Of a DNA stretch of 63,302 nucleotides, positions 7,313 through 15,411 are shown one piece after another. The DNA lies in assembly GCA_021806295.1 (NCBI GenBank), contig JAJZXS010000005.1:1-63302 (forward strand), read 5' to 3'. Made by a program: the position numbers and the translations under genes. Within the stretch, counting starts at the first letter, position 1; each line of letters starts with the position of its first letter. Under the pieces are notes generated by a model, which saw nothing but the letters and a program-made list of their open reading frames with translations, did no database searches and was not told the DNA's origin. This DNA comes from Thermoplasmata archaeon. GTDB taxonomy: Archaea > Thermoplasmatota > Thermoplasmata > Thermoplasmatales > Thermoplasmataceae.

Positions 7313-7642
7313 ATTATCAATATACAATAAATATATACAATATAATATTTGCTTGCGTTGCTTTCTGTTTACCTAAAATCTTAAAATATATTGAAAGGCA
7401 TAATCAAAGAAATACCTACCAGTCTGCGTTTTCCACAGGGGTCTCCTTTCCGGTTTCCTTTCCAAGTATGTACCATGTTATAGCCCCTGCAGATCCTATG
7501 ACCCAGACAAATATGTTGAAAAGCATATACTGGTTCAGGCTGTATGTATATGTAATATATATTGTTGGAATATAAAGGCCGGTGCCCAGAAAACGCACAA
7601 GCGCTGTGAGGGCCCCCCTTGATTTTGTCGCCCATACTTCAG

Positions 7643-7650
7643 ATTTCAGG
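7643..7650. repeat. 8-bp direct repeat, left edge of IS607 element
   Basis: ATTTCAGG here is repeated at 9613-9620. The two copies coincide with the points where similarity to the interrupted MFS gene stops, so they mark the element boundaries. IS607-type recombinases are not expected to make long target duplications, so the repeat may instead reflect target choice. Confidence 0.55.
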
Positions 7651-7706
7651 GTTTAAACTGTTAATGTAAACACTTATATATAGTTATTTATTATTATGCA
7701 ATATAT

Positions 7707-8291
7707 ATGGGTAGGATATACACAATCAGGGAGGCATGCGATATACTGCAGATAGATGCAACCACACTGAGAAGGTGGGACCGTGAGGGAAAAATACACT
7801 GCATAAGGTTGTCAAACAACTTCAGAAGGGTTCCTGAGGAGGAAATCAACAGGATATTAGGAATAAAAAACAACAGGATAGATGCAATATATGCCAGGGT
7901 ATCATCCAGTGACCAGAAGAATGATTTATATAACCAAATAAATAGATTGAAATCATTATATCCCGATGCACAGGTATTCAGCGACATTAAATCCGAATTG
8001 AAGTTCAACAGAAAAGGATTCATTGAATTATTGAATATGATCGAGGACAATAAAGTAAACAATATTTATATTACCCATAGGGACAGGCTGGCAAGGTTTG
8101 GATTTGATTTAATAGAGAGTATATGCAAGATGCATAATACAAAAATAATAGAAACAGATGGGGAAGAAATATTATCAGCCAATGAGGAACTCACCAGAGA
8201 TTTGATATCCATAATAACCTCATTTTCAGCAAGGCTTTATGGTCTCAGGTCGCATAAGATGAAGAACATATTGGAGGCTGTAAGGGAATGA
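7707..8291 (+). CDS. tnpA: IS607 transposase: MerR-type HTH plus serine recombinase
   Basis: Residues 1-50 form a MerR-like helix-turn-helix (YTIREACDILQIDATTLRRW) that binds element ends. Residues 58-190 are the resolvase domain with YARVSSSDQ containing the nucleophile Ser66, ITHRDRLARFG and a C-terminal helix. The 194-residue length is typical. It cuts and rejoins DNA through a phosphoserine intermediate. Its TGA overlaps the tnpB ATG (ATGA at 8288-8291), so the two are translationally coupled. All motifs are intact. Confidence 0.93.
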   Translation: MGRIYTIREACDILQIDATTLRRWDREGKIHCIRLSNNFRRVPEEEINRILGIKNNRIDAIYARVSSSDQKNDLYNQINRLKSLYPDAQVFSDIKSELKFNRKGFIELLNMIEDNKVNNIYITHRDRLARFGFDLIESICKMHNTKIIETDGEEILSANEELTRDLISIITSFSARLYGLRSHKMKNILEAVRE

Positions 8292-9611
8292 CCCATCCAT
8301 GGAAATCCACTGATGAGAAAAGAACCATAGTATTCAGCTATAGTCCAGGTAATAACATCATACAATATCTAACCGATATGAGGGATTTAATAAACAGGGC
8401 GATAATAAATGCATATGCCATGGCAAAATCTAACAATAATAAACTGCCATCACCTATTATATTAAGAAGGTCATTAAAGAATTATTATGATAATAATATC
8501 ATTTATGCAAAGCACCATATCAATCCTGCATGCAGGAATGCAATAGCAATATTAAGATCCTATAAGAAGAACAATAATGGGGAATTAAGGATTATCAAAG
8601 CAGAAAGGCTGGCAATGAGGATAGACTCTGAATTAATAAAAATAGAGAATAATAGATTAAGAATAACTTTAAAGCCCCATGAGTATGAATACATTGGCAT
8701 TGTTGATAAAAATAAGAAGTTCAGCGAATATTCTAAATATAAATTATCAGAGGTATTGTTGACAGACAGTAAGGTATGCATTACATTCAGGGTTGGAACC
8801 TTAAACAAGCCGGTAATGGAGGATAATATAATAGGATTTGACTTGAACTTCAAATCTGTTGATTATACCATTATAAAGAACAATGAAATCGTTGAAACAA
8901 ATACCATAAACACATCCCATATAGCAAAGACGCAGAGGGACTATGCAAGGAAGAGGACAAAGATACAGAAGCATATAAAGAATCCTGCCAAAAGGGACAG
9001 GAAATTAATGGAGGCAGGCCACAGGCAGAAGAACACTGTAATGGATAAACTCCAAACTGACAACTGAAATTGTCAATGATAACAGTGATAAGACCTTTGT
9101 GTTCGAAGACCTGACAGATATAAAAAAGGAGGGAAAGAAGAATAAGAAGAGTAATAACGAGAATAAAAAATATAAGAATAATAATAAAGACAGTAAGGCC
9201 ATCAATGAAAAAAGTAATAAGAATAAGAATCATAAAAACAAAAGGTTCAGGACAGATATCAACAGATGGCCATACAGACTATTCCAGAAGCTTATTGATT
9301 ATAAATCCAAAAATAGAACATTATACGTAAATCCAGAGGGGACTTCTTCAGAATGTCCTGTATGTGGTGGTAAATTAAGGCACCCAATCTGGAAGGAATC
9401 AAAATGCATTAACTGTGGTGTAACCTTTAACAGGGATAGGCTATCATCATTGTCTATTTCTGTCAGGGGATTATGCCTGTGCGGTACCCCGTTTACCGTG
9501 AGTGGCAGTTCCTCCTGGGATTCCATGAAGAATAATTACCTGTACCATCCAGATCATGTAGTTATTGAGAATTCCAGCGACTGCAAGAAGTATTTGCATA
9601 GCAATGCATAA
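8288..9611 (+). pseudogene. tnpB: tnpB RNA-guided nuclease gene, frameshifted
   Basis: The first frame covers 8288-9067 and the second continues to 9611; the frame changes near 9048-9053, where the protein would read on as KLTTEIVNDN in the +1 frame. All RuvC pieces survive across the two frames: GFDLN (first Asp), FEDL (Glu), CPVCGG and CINCG (zinc ribbon), and NRDRLSSL (last Asp). Between the Glu and the zinc ribbon lies a long Lys/Asn-rich stretch. TnpB is an RNA-guided DNA nuclease that helps IS elements persist. With the frame broken, the full nuclease is not made unless ribosomes slip; a sequencing error cannot be excluded. The guide RNA would be expected to overlap the right end of the element. 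Confidence 0.85.
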
Positions 9612-9612
9612 T

Positions 9613-9620
9613 ATTTCAGG
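9613..9620. repeat. 8-bp direct repeat, right edge of IS607 element
   Basis: Second copy of ATTTCAGG (first at 7643-7650). It directly follows the tnpB stop codon and precedes recognisable MFS coding sequence on the minus strand. Confidence 0.55.
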
Positions 9621-10740
9621 AACGGTATCTTCTGCGAGATATCCAAGCTGGACAAAGGCATTCAGTACAATGACCAGCATCCAGAACATTATAATATATT
9701 TGGACCAGGTGCCTATGGTTTCATATGTGATAAGTGTAAGAACCAGTGCACCGACGTTTCCATAGAGAAGCATCTTCTTCCTGTTTACCCGCTCTCCAAC
9801 AAGCCCGATGAAACCCACCACAAAGGCTGCTACACTGGATACAAGGAGTATAAGGTCGGTTAGATCTGGAAATATAATGGGCCTGGGCTCATAGGCTATA
9901 AGGCCGAAGCCAGTTGTCCCTGCGAATGCAGTGGTGAGGGTTGCAAAGAACTTCAGCCAGAAATGCTTTGTTTTGTCAAGCCCGTTTTTTTCTGATTTCT
10001 TTGAAATATACCCAATGCTCTGTGAGAATCGATCCTCCCCGTAATATTTGAGTGCGTCGACCTATGCCTGTTTCTCATGCCCCATGGTTGCCAGCCACAG
10101 GAAACTTTCCGGTAAATAACGCCTTGATGCCAACAGTACTATGAGGACGATAACAGTGGTTCCGGCTATCATGATCCTCTGGAAAAATATTGATCCGTAG
10201 GCTGTGGAGAAGGCAACACCTGCCAGTACAAGCCCACCCAGGGGTATGAAGTTCAGTTCCAGGAGCATGGTGGAGCTTCTGTGCTGCCTGGGCATAATTT
10301 CCTGGGAGAGCGCCATTATTGTATTCAATTCCCCGCCAGATGCAAAAAGAAGTATTGCAATAAATATCAATATTAGGTAAAAAGAATAACTTAGAGTTAT
10401 GCCAATTGCACCCACGCCGTACATTGCCATGGTGATATAGAACACATCCTTTCTTCCGATACGGTCCGATACCGGCCAGGCAACAGCTATTCCTATTATA
10501 GGCCAGAAGGGAGACCATGAAAGAAGTATTGCAGTGAAATCTGGTGGAATTGTAACCCATGTGGTCGCCAATGAAGCCATACCCAATATGTAAGATTCAA
10601 GGAACATGCCCATGGAAAATGAGATAAATGCCCATGTATCTGTTCTTGCCCATTTATAAAAATTCTGTAACTTTTATCTGAATTCATTTTAGCACCTTGA
10701 CGTAAATTGTGGCCATAAGTAATGTTTAAAACATTTAATT

Positions 10741-11697
10741 TTACTGATTTGCCTGTTTTACCACCGCTCTTCCAAGATCAGAATTAACTACATCGCCAAA
10801 ATACTCAAGGGTTACCCAATCCAGGTGTTTTAAATCCATTTCTGTATCTACTATGAGATTGAAGTACTCTCTTGCCCGGAAGTCGGGCAATACGAAATTC
10901 ATGTAAAACTTATTTTTATCGGCGTACATGAAGAGAAAATTCCAGGTAATATTTTTCTTCATTGCCTTGTTTGCTAAAAGATTAAGTATATCTTCGTCAG
11001 TCTTTGTAGTGTATATATGTTCATCCTCTGATATCTTTAGCATATTTTCAAAACCTTCTAAATTTTTATCTGAATAAATAATGGTACGGAACTGGCCTTC
11101 CAGTGAATAATTATCTATAAATTGGGCTATGGCACCAGTATCTTTAAGTGCAGTTATTAGACGATAATGCCCAAATATTGACATAGGCAGGCTAATAACA
11201 ATGGATTTTAGATTTACACACCAGCTCTTCATGTAATCGAAGATACCCATAGAAGGCTTTATGGAAATCTTTGCCAGTATCCCATTTACTGAAATATATT
11301 CAGAAATGAGGTCAGAAAATGCCATTGTAGAACTTTCAAGCATATACCCTGTTAATATTAGATACTTCCCCTCTATTTTCATATATGGAACAGCCAGACC
11401 GTCTATATTATCCAGTTTCATAAGAAAAGATAGAACTCTTTCATCAGATATTTTTTTCTTTACCATAAAATAAAGCTCCCTTTCTTCCACACCAAGAAGT
11501 GGAAAGAATGGAGTGAACTTTGTATAATCATAGGTTTTTGGCAAGAAAACTGACAGGAAAATTTTGTCCTCATCCCTAACCAGTGCACAGGGTGCATTAA
11601 AACCTATGCTATCGCTCACCGCCATAGGCAGTGATCTAAGCCTGATTTTCAGCTCAAAATATTTCGAGAGCTTAAGGTTCACTTCCGAGAATTCCAT
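10741..11697 (-). CDS. Conserved-looking protein of unknown function, paralogue of 14464-15411
   Basis: The 318-residue soluble protein matches no family I recognise. It has no signal peptide or membrane segment. It aligns by eye with the 315-residue protein encoded at 14464-15411: both have a segment ending in a short EG-containing strand (MKIEGKYLILTGYM against MTIEEGKMILRIRF) and, in the C-terminal third, ISEDEHIYTTKTDEDILNLL against ISREDMIYQTQSTNELLNMI. The pattern suggests two related alpha/beta domains. It is the last gene of the minus-strand cluster, 36 bases after the GT2 synthase, so a role linked to the synthase or the KaiC-like ATPase is likely. I do not propose a biochemical function. 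Confidence 0.75.
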   Translation of the reverse strand: MEFSEVNLKLSKYFELKIRLRSLPMAVSDSIGFNAPCALVRDEDKIFLSVFLPKTYDYTKFTPFFPLLGVEERELYFMVKKKISDERVLSFLMKLDNIDGLAVPYMKIEGKYLILTGYMLESSTMAFSDLISEYISVNGILAKISIKPSMGIFDYMKSWCVNLKSIVISLPMSIFGHYRLITALKDTGAIAQFIDNYSLEGQFRTIIYSDKNLEGFENMLKISEDEHIYTTKTDEDILNLLANKAMKKNITWNFLFMYADKNKFYMNFVLPDFRAREYFNLIVDTEMDLKHLDWVTLEYFGDVVNSDLGRAVVKQANQ

Positions 11698-11733
11698 TGA
11701 ATAACATATAACCGGAATATAAAAACATTATTG

Positions 11734-13275
11734 TTAATTACCGTGGCTTTTGAAGGCAGGTGCGTCCATAGATGATTCTCTTGGATTTCTGTTAAGCCAG
11801 AATATTGGAATTAGGAGTGTGAACTGGAAAAATCCCCAGAAGGCCGATATATAGGTATATACCGTATGCTGAAGCAGGAGATAGGTTGACGCAATTAAGA
11901 GCAGGATCATTATTGTAATCTGTCCCCAAAAATGGCTCCATGGCAATTTTCCACCTGTCCTTGCAGTGGTGAATGGCCTTTTTTTCTTTAGCAATACATC
12001 TATGGAAGCGTATATACTTAGGGGAAATATAAGCACATTGGCTGCCATGTTATAGAATACAAAGCGCAAGGGGGCACCTTTCTCTTTTTGCGAAAGTATA
12101 AAGGTAGTCATTACTAAGATAGTATATGGTAACCATGCAAAAAAATATAAAATATTATTAATGGTTAAAACTCTTATACCTGCCATGTCCAGAATAGGCG
12201 AGATCAGGAATATAAGATAAAACCAGCCAAATGTATACCATGTTGTGGTGGCAAACCAGTCAACCTTTTGGCGCCATGGGAATTTTTTACTCATAATAAT
12301 TTTTTTCAGTATTTTTGGCATAAGCTGGAGAGACCCGGACATCCATCTCCATTGCTGATTTACATACCCCTGCATGGTTACAGGGGCTCTGCCATAAACC
12401 AGTTTCTTGTTGAAATACATTCCCAGCCATCCATTTATTGCCATATTCACAGTTGTGGCAATATCCTCAACAATGCTGCTTTCATCAAAAAAGTTGACAG
12501 ATCTTAATGCCTCCATCCTGTATACCACATTTGTCCCACATGAAAAAAGTGTGCCCTTAACACTCTTTCCCTCTGTAAGTATTTCATAGAAAATAAACTG
12601 CTGTGCCTGGGCAATCTCAGCTAATACACTTGAGTCGGCATTTGAATAAACCTGTGGTACCTGTACGAACCCTATATTGGGATTTCTATCAAGAAGTGCA
12701 GTAGTTTCCCTTAAAAAATCTGGTGCAGGCATCTGGTCTATATCCAGGACACAGGCATATGGTTCCTTTAAATCTTTAAGAACGTCATTAAGGGCACCTG
12801 CTTTATATCCTCTTCTGTTATCCCTGTGAACATATTTCATTCCCAGCCTCTGGCTTAATTCTGCAATATAACCTGTGTCTCCAGTCGTAGAATCATCCAG
12901 AACATAAACATCTGCATTCTGCCCTACATTTGAGGAAATAGCTATTAAATTTGTTCTTACCATTTCTGGCTCTTCATTGAAAACTGGCACAAGCACAGCA
13001 ACCCTGTCTCTCAGCCCATTTATGTATCCATACTGGATGCTGGGCTTATAAACACTTTCGCTCTTCTTGAATGATAAAAAATACGTTACACTCTGAATCC
13101 CAAAAAACACGCTTGCAATCCAGAACCACAGTGTAAAGAAATATTCTAAAAACGTCCCATGTTTTAATATAATGGCAGCATAAAGTGAGGCCATTATTCC
13201 GATAAAAATGAAAATTATGGATACTATTGTCATAATATTTACAACAGTTACTGTATATTTACCCAGGTTGATCAC
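11734..13275 (-). CDS. Membrane glycosyltransferase family 2, cellulose/hyaluronan-synthase-like
   Basis: The 513-residue protein has two N-terminal membrane helices (about 10-36 and 42-68), a cytoplasmic GT-A domain and about five C-terminal helices. All processive GT2 motifs are present: VLVPVFNE (93-100), first Asp pair at 127-128 (LDDS), DID at 178-180, ED at 270-271 as catalytic base, and QQWRW at 307-311. The last feature is shared with cellulose, hyaluronan and poly-GlcNAc synthases, which polymerise UDP-sugars and extrude the chain. A cytoplasmic RPFTTARTGG loop resembles the bacterial BcsA segment, but no PilZ domain follows, so c-di-GMP control is not expected. The start codon overlaps the stop of the KaiC-like gene (ATGA), implying translational coupling. 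Product polymer is unknown. Confidence 0.9.
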   Translation of the reverse strand: MINLGKYTVTVVNIMTIVSIIFIFIGIMASLYAAIILKHGTFLEYFFTLWFWIASVFFGIQSVTYFLSFKKSESVYKPSIQYGYINGLRDRVAVLVPVFNEEPEMVRTNLIAISSNVGQNADVYVLDDSTTGDTGYIAELSQRLGMKYVHRDNRRGYKAGALNDVLKDLKEPYACVLDIDQMPAPDFLRETTALLDRNPNIGFVQVPQVYSNADSSVLAEIAQAQQFIFYEILTEGKSVKGTLFSCGTNVVYRMEALRSVNFFDESSIVEDIATTVNMAINGWLGMYFNKKLVYGRAPVTMQGYVNQQWRWMSGSLQLMPKILKKIIMSKKFPWRQKVDWFATTTWYTFGWFYLIFLISPILDMAGIRVLTINNILYFFAWLPYTILVMTTFILSQKEKGAPLRFVFYNMAANVLIFPLSIYASIDVLLKKKRPFTTARTGGKLPWSHFWGQITIMILLLIASTYLLLQHTVYTYISAFWGFFQFTLLIPIFWLNRNPRESSMDAPAFKSHGN

Positions 13276-14369
13276 CTGATGTTTCTAAAAATATTATCGT
13301 CTGAAGCGTCTCTGTCCACTGTGTTTACATGCTGGACAGTTTTTATACCATCTGAGGTTATCTGGAAATAAAATGGATTTGAGTCAAATACTGTCCCACG
13401 CATCTTTACTATATTCATTGACCTGAGTATGCCTTCGTTGCTTGAGGTGTAATTTAACTTTATTATGCCGGTAGCGTAATACTCCTCAATTCCAAACATA
13501 CTCAGTTCACTGTTTCTTAATCCTGATGTGACAATCACTGTTACCCCACTTAAAGCAAGGCTGTTTAACATTAAATTTATATAATCATCATCAGGAATTA
13601 ATAGAAGTGTAATAGGGTCTATTGCAACCCTTTTTATATTTTTTGAGATAATTATTTTCTTCAGTTCTGTTACAACCTTTGTAATAAATTTTCTGAAATC
13701 TTCCCTGCCAGAGGATATATCTGATTTCATTGATCTTATTGAGTCAGATATTTCCATTACCTCTATCATTTTTTTGTCGTAATATTCTTTAAATCCTATA
13801 TTCATTGTCCTGATATTATCTAGAAACTGATCTGGAAAGGTATCTGTAAGAATCATTAACCCTTTCTCGCCTATACTTGCGCCATATGATAGGAATGTGC
13901 TTGCGATAGTAGTTTTACCTGCACCGGTTATGCCACAAATCATATAAACATATCCTGGCCTTAGGCCACCGGATAGTTTTGCATCCAGTGTTGTTATCCC
14001 GAATTTTGCCCTCTGAACCAGTGTATTAACTTCCTGTTTCACATCTATTATGTCAATTCCATATACATTGCACATTTTTTTTATATAATCCCCAATCTCT
14101 GTGTATGATAGAATTGCCTTTTTTGTTATTCCTGCATCCAGGGCCTGTGAATTAAATATCATTATATCGTTTGCAGTTGTATTTTCATCAGAAGACATAG
14201 CTGCGATCATTACTCCATCCCACTCAATAATAAATTCAAACCTATATTCCATTCCAGACTGCCCCATAATATTCTTGTTCTGGAAAATTGAGATTGATTT
14301 TGTATCTATAGAATATTTTGATGAAATGATTTTCGAAAGTGTGTTAGCATCCAAACCTTTTTTATACAA
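13272..14369 (-). CDS. KaiC/RadA-like P-loop ATPase with novel N-terminal domain
   Basis: Residues 115-340 form a RecA/KaiC-type ATPase: the typical KaiC entry GITTLDAKLSGGLRPG, Walker A GITGAGKTT at 146-154, and Walker B RVAIDPIT with Asp251. The N-terminal 110 residues (FIIEWDGVMIAAMSS and onward) match no domain I know and could sense a ligand or partner. KaiC-like ATPases in archaea act as regulators or assembly factors (ArlH of the archaellum is one), and many lack recombinase activity. Here the gene overlaps the GT2 synthase by four bases, a strong hint that the two work together. The start is a TTG at 14369; an in-frame TAG two codons upstream rules out a longer protein. Confidence 0.85.
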   Translation of the reverse strand: MYKKGLDANTLSKIISSKYSIDTKSISIFQNKNIMGQSGMEYRFEFIIEWDGVMIAAMSSDENTTANDIMIFNSQALDAGITKKAILSYTEIGDYIKKMCNVYGIDIIDVKQEVNTLVQRAKFGITTLDAKLSGGLRPGYVYMICGITGAGKTTIASTFLSYGASIGEKGLMILTDTFPDQFLDNIRTMNIGFKEYYDKKMIEVMEISDSIRSMKSDISSGREDFRKFITKVVTELKKIIISKNIKRVAIDPITLLLIPDDDYINLMLNSLALSGVTVIVTSGLRNSELSMFGIEEYYATGIIKLNYTSSNEGILRSMNIVKMRGTVFDSNPFYFQITSDGIKTVQHVNTVDRDASDDNIFRNIR

Positions 14370-14463
14370 CGTCTATTAATAGAAGTGTGGCATATAAATT
14401 TTTTTAAAAACATGAATAATTAGCATCTATGCAGTGAGCGACCTTAATAATAAAATTCTTTGA

Positions 14464-15411
14464 TTAAAGATTGCTATATAAATCTGCATCAAAGTCCGAA
14501 CATACACTCAGGTCTATAATATTTTTTCCATATAGGTCTCTGCTGCATGAAAAGATAATCTCAAGATACTCATTGAGCCTGTATGTTGATATAATGGATG
14601 AAGAATATAGTCTACCATTTCTGTACTTAATAATTATATTTGCCCTGTAAATTCCACGCTCATTTGCTCTGTCCTTTATCATGTTTAGGAGTTCATTTGT
14701 ACTCTGGGTCTGATATATCATATCCTCCCTTGATATACATTTTAAACCGTTTTTTTCCTCCAGTTCATGCGGGGGAAAAATTACAACACGGAAGTCCTTC
14801 TTATCGTATGGATTTTCAATAACCTCAGCAAGAGCATCCTCATTCATGAGAATTTCAGTGGGGTAATCAATTTTATGTGCACCAATTGGCAGTGAATACT
14901 GGATCATTGACACTGGTGACCTTTTATTCTTTTTGGAAATTAAGAATATGACATCCTCGCTCTCTGTAAGATTTATATCATCAATAAAGTATGGAATTTG
15001 AAGATATTTATTTAAGACAAGTGATACATTTGTCTTGTACATGTGATTGAACCTAATCCTTAAAATCATTTTACCCTCTTCTATGGTCATTTCACCGAAC
15101 TGTAAACTTGGTACATCCCAAAATTCCTTAATTAAACCCAGTATTTTTTTATTCATTATGGGTCGGGATATTAAATAATAGCTTTCAGTCTCAATAGGGC
15201 TGTAGGAATTGATTAGTTCAATAGCATGCCCATTCAACATGGCTTTTGTAATGAAAGCCTCAAAATAATATTTTCCGGTGTCATTATCCGGCTTGATAAA
15301 AATGCCAATTGTAATATTGTGTAACTTTGACCATCTGAAAATATCAGCTGTATCATTTATCATCATCTTTAATTCTGTATCCAACCTACATCCGATATCT
15401 TTAATTCGCAT
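14464..15411 (-). CDS. Unknown protein, first gene of KaiC-GT2 cluster, paralogue of 10741-11697
   Basis: This 315-residue soluble protein belongs to no family I recognise but shares length, order of segments and several short motifs with the product of 10741-11697 (see there). Identity by eye is low, probably near 20 percent, so the duplication is old. No helix-turn-helix, P-loop or membrane segment is obvious. It lies 94 bases upstream of the KaiC-like ATPase and may be transcribed separately or as the first gene of the cluster. The ATG at 15411 follows an AT-rich stretch with TATA-like sequence. Confidence 0.75.
   Translation of the reverse strand: MRIKDIGCRLDTELKMMINDTADIFRWSKLHNITIGIFIKPDNDTGKYYFEAFITKAMLNGHAIELINSYSPIETESYYLISRPIMNKKILGLIKEFWDVPSLQFGEMTIEEGKMILRIRFNHMYKTNVSLVLNKYLQIPYFIDDINLTESEDVIFLISKKNKRSPVSMIQYSLPIGAHKIDYPTEILMNEDALAEVIENPYDKKDFRVVIFPPHELEEKNGLKCISREDMIYQTQSTNELLNMIKDRANERGIYRANIIIKYRNGRLYSSSIISTYRLNEYLEIIFSCSRDLYGKNIIDLSVCSDFDADLYSNL

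Follow-up and report, generated by a model that had tools for sequence, protein, structure and literature searches.

What might a KaiC-like ATPase, a membrane polysaccharide synthase and two mutually related proteins do together in an archaeon? The question is raised by four minus-strand genes at positions 10741-15411 of a 63,302-nucleotide stretch of DNA (contig JAJZXS010000005.1, assembly GCA_021806295.1; the whole stretch is hereafter the window) from a Thermoplasmata archaeon of the family Thermoplasmataceae. Read along the minus strand, they encode a Ta1207-family protein (TaA), an ATPase whose KaiC-like domain is preceded by a further N-terminal domain (N-domain), a BcsA-like synthase of glycosyltransferase family 2 (GT2) and a second Ta1207-family protein (TaB). 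We confirmed the four open reading frames (ORFs) at the positions given by the original prediction, which had been made from the sequence alone and had proposed a regulated polysaccharide machine. The reading that we favour, with about even confidence, is that the ATPase and the Ta1207 proteins form a signalling module of the KaiC-hub type that would control the synthase and, through it, the making of a surface polysaccharide. The coupled unit of KaiC, GT2 and paralogues stands as predicted; control of the synthase by the ATPase and the Ta1207 proteins is what we infer from it.

The unit is not a chance cluster, as it recurs in other genomes. The full same-strand order TaA-KaiC-GT2-TaB was found at six loci in two genera, Ferroplasma and Acidiplasma (the window, G006, WH1.bin9, Acidiplasma aeolicum, TL1-4.bin46 and TL1-3.bin39), with one opposite-strand ORF inserted in WH1.bin9, and the order TaA-KaiC-GT2 is also present in another genus (L200). 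In two or more genera, three or all four of these genes co-occur, a pattern that had been named beforehand as support for a system. In the family of the source archaeon (the window's family), GT2 adjoins a KaiC with the N-domain in 16 of 17 loci, and at the seventeenth (WH5.bin18) a GT2 fragment remains between KaiC and TaB. This linkage is kept in four genera, with a KaiC-GT2 gap of -4 to +6 bases in about half of the loci and never above 225. A Ta1207 gene lies within about two genes of the KaiC-GT2 pair in 14 of the 15 loci that are not cut by a contig end, and 6 kb away in the other; by chance alone, we estimate, roughly 1% of loci would have a Ta1207 gene no more than 3 kb away, given a density of 2-4 such genes per 1.8 Mb. 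In the trees, Ta1207 subclades follow KaiC subclades, and one genome of the window's family (G021) carries a KaiC of the type found in the sister family ('I-plasma' type) together with a Ta1207 pair of that same type and a GT2. In WH1.bin9 the KaiC, TaA and TaB group with those of the window and the GT2 falls in the other GT2 clade, so that the synthase was exchanged there with the gene order unchanged.

The synthase gene (11734..13275, minus strand, 513 residues) starts with GTG and overlaps the ATPase gene by four bases, which read GTGA and not ATGA as had been claimed. Its product matches PF13632, PF13641 and PF00535, contains seven hydrophobic segments and carries all of the processive GT2 motifs that had been predicted (LDDS, DID, VED and QQWRW); by its motifs and membrane segments we class it as a predicted processive GT2 synthase. 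BcsA is its match in the PDB (E 2.7e-26), and its score against the BcsA equivalog TIGR03030 is 150.6 bits, far below the cut-off of 699.1. No BcsB-like partner was recognised, in a survey that included no profile search for BcsB. As predicted, PilZ was absent from the protein; it was also absent from 41 relative genomes, and GGDEF from 25 of 25 genomes of the window's family, while controls in both searches gave the expected matches. The lack of GGDEF fits the statement that GGDEF regulators are generally missing from archaea (PMC5847659). With neither PilZ nor GGDEF found, no pathway of cyclic di-GMP (c-di-GMP) is left to replace in this family, and we dropped, as worded, the proposal that the ATPase and the paralogues replace c-di-GMP control.

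The synthase differs from its homologues at the gating loop. At this position of the GT2 alignment, every member of the clade that is linked to N-domain KaiC has FxTARTG (16/16), a motif confined to that clade; unlinked archaeal homologues, and a second KaiC-GT2 pair described below, read FKVTPK, FRVTPK or FSVTPK. The modified motif of the window, PFTTARTGGKLP (11937..11973, minus strand), aligns to the FxVTPK of the unlinked homologues. FxTARTG is a clade signature, behind which there may lie a change in control.

The ATPase (13272..14369, minus strand, 365 residues, TTG start) matches PF06745 over residues 122-346 (E 4.8e-40; 137.8 bits against a cut-off of 26.6). Walker A (GITGAGKTT), Walker B (VAIDP) and KMRG are all there, and the three are kept in nearly all N-domain KaiCs. 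The catalytic glutamate position holds an aspartate that is conserved in the family, giving DT where KaiC has EE; membership of PF06745 does not need this pair. Resemblance of the domain to KaiCs in the PDB (E 1e-27) might bring to mind a KaiC-type clock timing polysaccharide synthesis, an idea that we consider extremely improbable and rejected because the ATPase has a single KaiC domain, not the tandem CI-CII arrangement of the KaiABC clock, and KaiB was found in none of 26 relative genomes (0/26); the DT in place of the catalytic glutamate pair of clock KaiC points the same way.

The ATPase N-domain of about 110 residues (14010..14369, minus strand) proved to be real, is conserved in relatives and has no Pfam match above cut-off. 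An AlphaFold2 (AF2) model built on 30 aligned sequences (predicted local distance difference test, pLDDT, 86.6) has the element order a-bbb-a-b-a-b (a, helix; b, strand), which includes the alpha-beta3-alpha-beta core of the PD-(D/E)xK fold. Foldseek matched the model to AF1548 (1y88, E 3.1e-6), Can2, EcoT38I, VC1899 and Bax1, all of which have PD-(D/E)xK folds; when the N-domain alignment was used as a profile against the PDB, no match was found. We regard this as a putative nuclease-dead PD-(D/E)xK-type domain, because the acidic residue of (D/E)xK is missing in all KaiC N-domains aligned, where the strand reads IAAM, IAVK or VAVL. Other genera encode relatives of the domain joined to HTH_45 winged helices (Thermoplasma acidophilum has such a protein), and one of these relatives scores above the DUF1829 cut-off. 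Proteins that join a PD-(D/E)xK-like domain to HTH_45 (L206, L208, L210 and L219) make up a family of uncharacterised regulators that is present in Thermoplasma and its relatives.

A nuclease fold beside an ATPase, in a unit whose synthase was exchanged in one genome, could be taken for a defence or mobile cassette that modifies the surface against viruses. We think this very unlikely and dropped it, since PADLOC matches were marginal, partial and to the ATPase only, no homologues were found in viral contigs (in a scan that left Ta1207 aside) and the nuclease motif is missing; the pattern across genera is, moreover, vertical. Within the class, N-domain KaiCs were limited to the window's and sister families, and those of the weaker matches elsewhere that were examined had other architectures. 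Two metagenome-assembled genomes labelled Micrarchaeota (L151:9887 and L152:9875) also carry an N-domain KaiC, with shared downstream neighbours and an adjoining PurD-like gene; either transfer or mis-binning may account for them, and Micrarchaeota live with Thermoplasmatales.

The two proteins that bracket the unit had been described as related to each other and of no known family. Their relationship holds (BLASTP E 7e-13, 21% over 233 residues), and they are distant paralogues, but both belong to PF19020 (Ta1207), a named Pfam family without known function: TaA (14464..15411, minus strand, 315 residues, soluble) scores 156.2 bits (E 1.1e-45) and TaB (10741..11697, minus strand, 318 residues) 121.6 bits (E 4.1e-35), against a cut-off of 26.3. 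The AF2 model of TaA, from 34 aligned sequences (pLDDT 92.7), is a chain of beta-alpha-beta units; in Foldseek it has a single clear match among solved structures, the Ta1207 crystal of T. acidophilum (5m86, E 4.3e-15, TM-scores 0.71/0.70). This fold test covers TaA. The Ta1207 sequences align without a conserved stretch. Searching the PDB with a profile made from their alignment (A6) returned no match, 5M86 being reached only by the fold search and by the direct sequence of the T. acidophilum gene, which we located (L218, 728 bits to 5m86). A viral fold search with the TaA model gave no match. TaA and TaB form two separate clades in the tree, each with Ferroplasma and Acidiplasma members, which indicates that their duplication predates the split between these genera. 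Of 300 genomes in the class, 52 contain PF19020, and every one of these belongs to the window's or the sister family. Several genera (G018, G020, G024 and G141) have expanded it to 8-14 copies, which frequently form tandem or head-to-head arrangements. The unit supplies a genomic context for what has been an orphan fold.

KaiC and GT2 are also paired a second time. In three Ferroplasma genomes (L111, L112:4814-7716 and L113), another BcsA-like GT2 is immediately preceded by a second and divergent gene with a KaiC domain, and in two of the three the genes overlap by 4 bases. This KaiC-domain protein has no Walker A and no KxRG, and its N-terminal region contains a cysteine pair (zinc-ribbon-like). 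Such a KaiC would suit a scaffolded glycan machine, in which a ring or cage of KaiC and Ta1207 positions the synthase with no ATP-dependent switching, and the ten chains of the 5M86 crystal entry give a hint of an oligomer; since almost every N-domain KaiC retains the Walker A, Walker B and KMRG motifs, however, we consider a scaffold without switching unlikely for the unit of the window.

The sister family bears on the strongest rival explanation. There, nine loci have KaiC and two adjacent Ta1207 genes without GT2, and these sets face genes for surface proteins that have PKD domains and, at the C-terminus, a membrane segment. The signalling core would thus not be defined by the synthase, which would be one of its outputs. 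The rival goes further: KaiC and Ta1207 would be a general regulatory pair, acting for example on transcription or on other targets, and the GT2 either a co-transcribed passenger or just one regulated gene among several, with no direct control. The sister-family sets agree with it, as do the fusions of N-domain relatives to winged helices and the Ta1207 copies scattered in most genomes; yet it sits less easily with a KaiC-GT2 linkage kept at short spacing in four genera, with the WH1.bin9 locus, where a GT2 of another clade took the same place and left the order intact, and with the existence of a second KaiC-GT2 pair. We hold a general regulator to be a real possibility, though short of probable. 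In one example of the sister-family arrangement (L149:11061-20974, with counterparts in L150 and L160), the KaiC-Ta1207 set is approached by convergent genes for two surface proteins, an 860-residue one with PKD domains and one of more than 2300 residues, each of which has a membrane segment at its C-terminus. A second N-domain KaiC of the sister family is without Ta1207.

Several observations, beside these nine sets without GT2, weigh against control of the synthase by the module. The correlation between the distances of KaiC and those of GT2 (15 loci, r 0.856; 0 of 10,000 permutations) speaks for the module, but such co-inheritance is expected of linked genes by genome descent alone. Ta1207 is multicopy, with 2-14 genes per genome, most of them distant from KaiC, and in F. 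acidarmanus 6 kb separate the TaA-TaB pair from one of the KaiC-GT2 pairs. The loss of Walker A in the second Ferroplasma pair suggests that some KaiC-GT2 pairings can do without ATP cycling. Finally, the unit need not be one transcript: a TATA-like box, read from the letters alone, lies upstream of the ATPase gene (14390..14410, minus strand), similar A/T-rich boxes precede TaA and TaB, with no obvious one before GT2, and TaA and TaB may each be transcribed from a separate promoter. In F. acidarmanus and G004 (L141:1455-3738 and L120:6712-8995), TaA and TaB orthologues stand side by side in what appears to be the flanking synteny of the window, with no KaiC-GT2 between them, which implies that the pair was either inserted or lost there.

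If a KaiC-Ta1207 signalling module does control the synthase, as we favour, the ATPase would form hexamers that bind and hydrolyse ATP in trans, its N-domain would work as a binding or sensing module and not as a nuclease, and the Ta1207 proteins would be adaptors that bind to KaiC. The ATPase, either by itself or via Ta1207, would then switch the synthase on and off, with the altered gating loop as a possible point of action, and the product would be a cell-surface homopolysaccharide. A more specific version, in which a KaiC-like hexamer with a repurposed nuclease-fold sensor recruits Ta1207 and gates the synthase directly via a re-evolved FxTARTG loop, as an archaeal ATP-dependent counterpart of PilZ/c-di-GMP control, is tentative and in our view doubtful. 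The recurrence of the unit suggests archaeal control of surface polysaccharide without c-di-GMP, and it offers a testable case of how a BcsA-type synthase could be controlled in a wall-less acidophile archaeon that has no c-di-GMP.

Next to TaB, a major facilitator superfamily (MFS) transporter gene that is intact in G006 (432 residues) is split in the window (7419-10655). Residues 12-358 match 10655-9615, with an in-frame stop, and residues 355-432 match 7652-7419. Between the two parts lie a serine recombinase gene (7707-8291; MerR and resolvase) and a TnpB-like gene in two ORFs (8288-9067 and 9099-9611), so that the interruption resembles an IS607-type insertion.

We found no description of this gene set in the literature; an earlier mention is possible, as the 2017 KaiC-hub study and the Ta1207 structure paper lay outside that search. 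'Cellulose synthase catalytic subunits' are mentioned for F. acidiphilum, without KaiC (PMC12350378). Compared with known systems, the synthase shares with BcsA the GT2 core (D, DxD, ED and QxxRW), the N- and C-terminal membrane segments and the position of the gating loop, but differs in having no PilZ or c-di-GMP pathway, in falling below the TIGR03030 cut-off and in reading FxTARTG and not FxVTxK. The REC-BcsA fusions of Methanobacteriaceae (PMC5847659) likewise place an archaeal BcsA-type GT2 under a signalling domain; there a two-component receiver is fused to the GT2, whereas the KaiC ATPase of the window is a separate protein. The N-domain has the fold of AF1548 (1y88), DUF1829 and the archaeal winged helix-turn-helix (wHTH) fusions, and the motif GxSGxxHxFD is common to it and the wHTH fusions; it differs in being joined to a KaiC ATPase and in lacking the catalytic (D/E)xK. 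TaA and TaB share profile family and TaA shares its fold with Ta1207 of T. acidophilum (PF19020, 5M86), whose own gene has no N-domain KaiC or GT2 alongside. KaiC superfamily ATPases have been proposed as archaeal signal-transduction hubs (Makarova, Galperin and Koonin 2017, as relayed by PMC5847659 and PMC6393860). Like those hubs, the unit combines a single PF06745 domain with an extra domain and co-located non-KaiC partners, and inactivated KaiC versions occur too; it differs in its N-terminal PD-(D/E)xK-like domain, its Ta1207 partners and its GT2 output. The outputs of KaiC hubs are mostly unknown in the literature examined, and this unit ties one KaiC subfamily to an enzymatic output that can be assayed.

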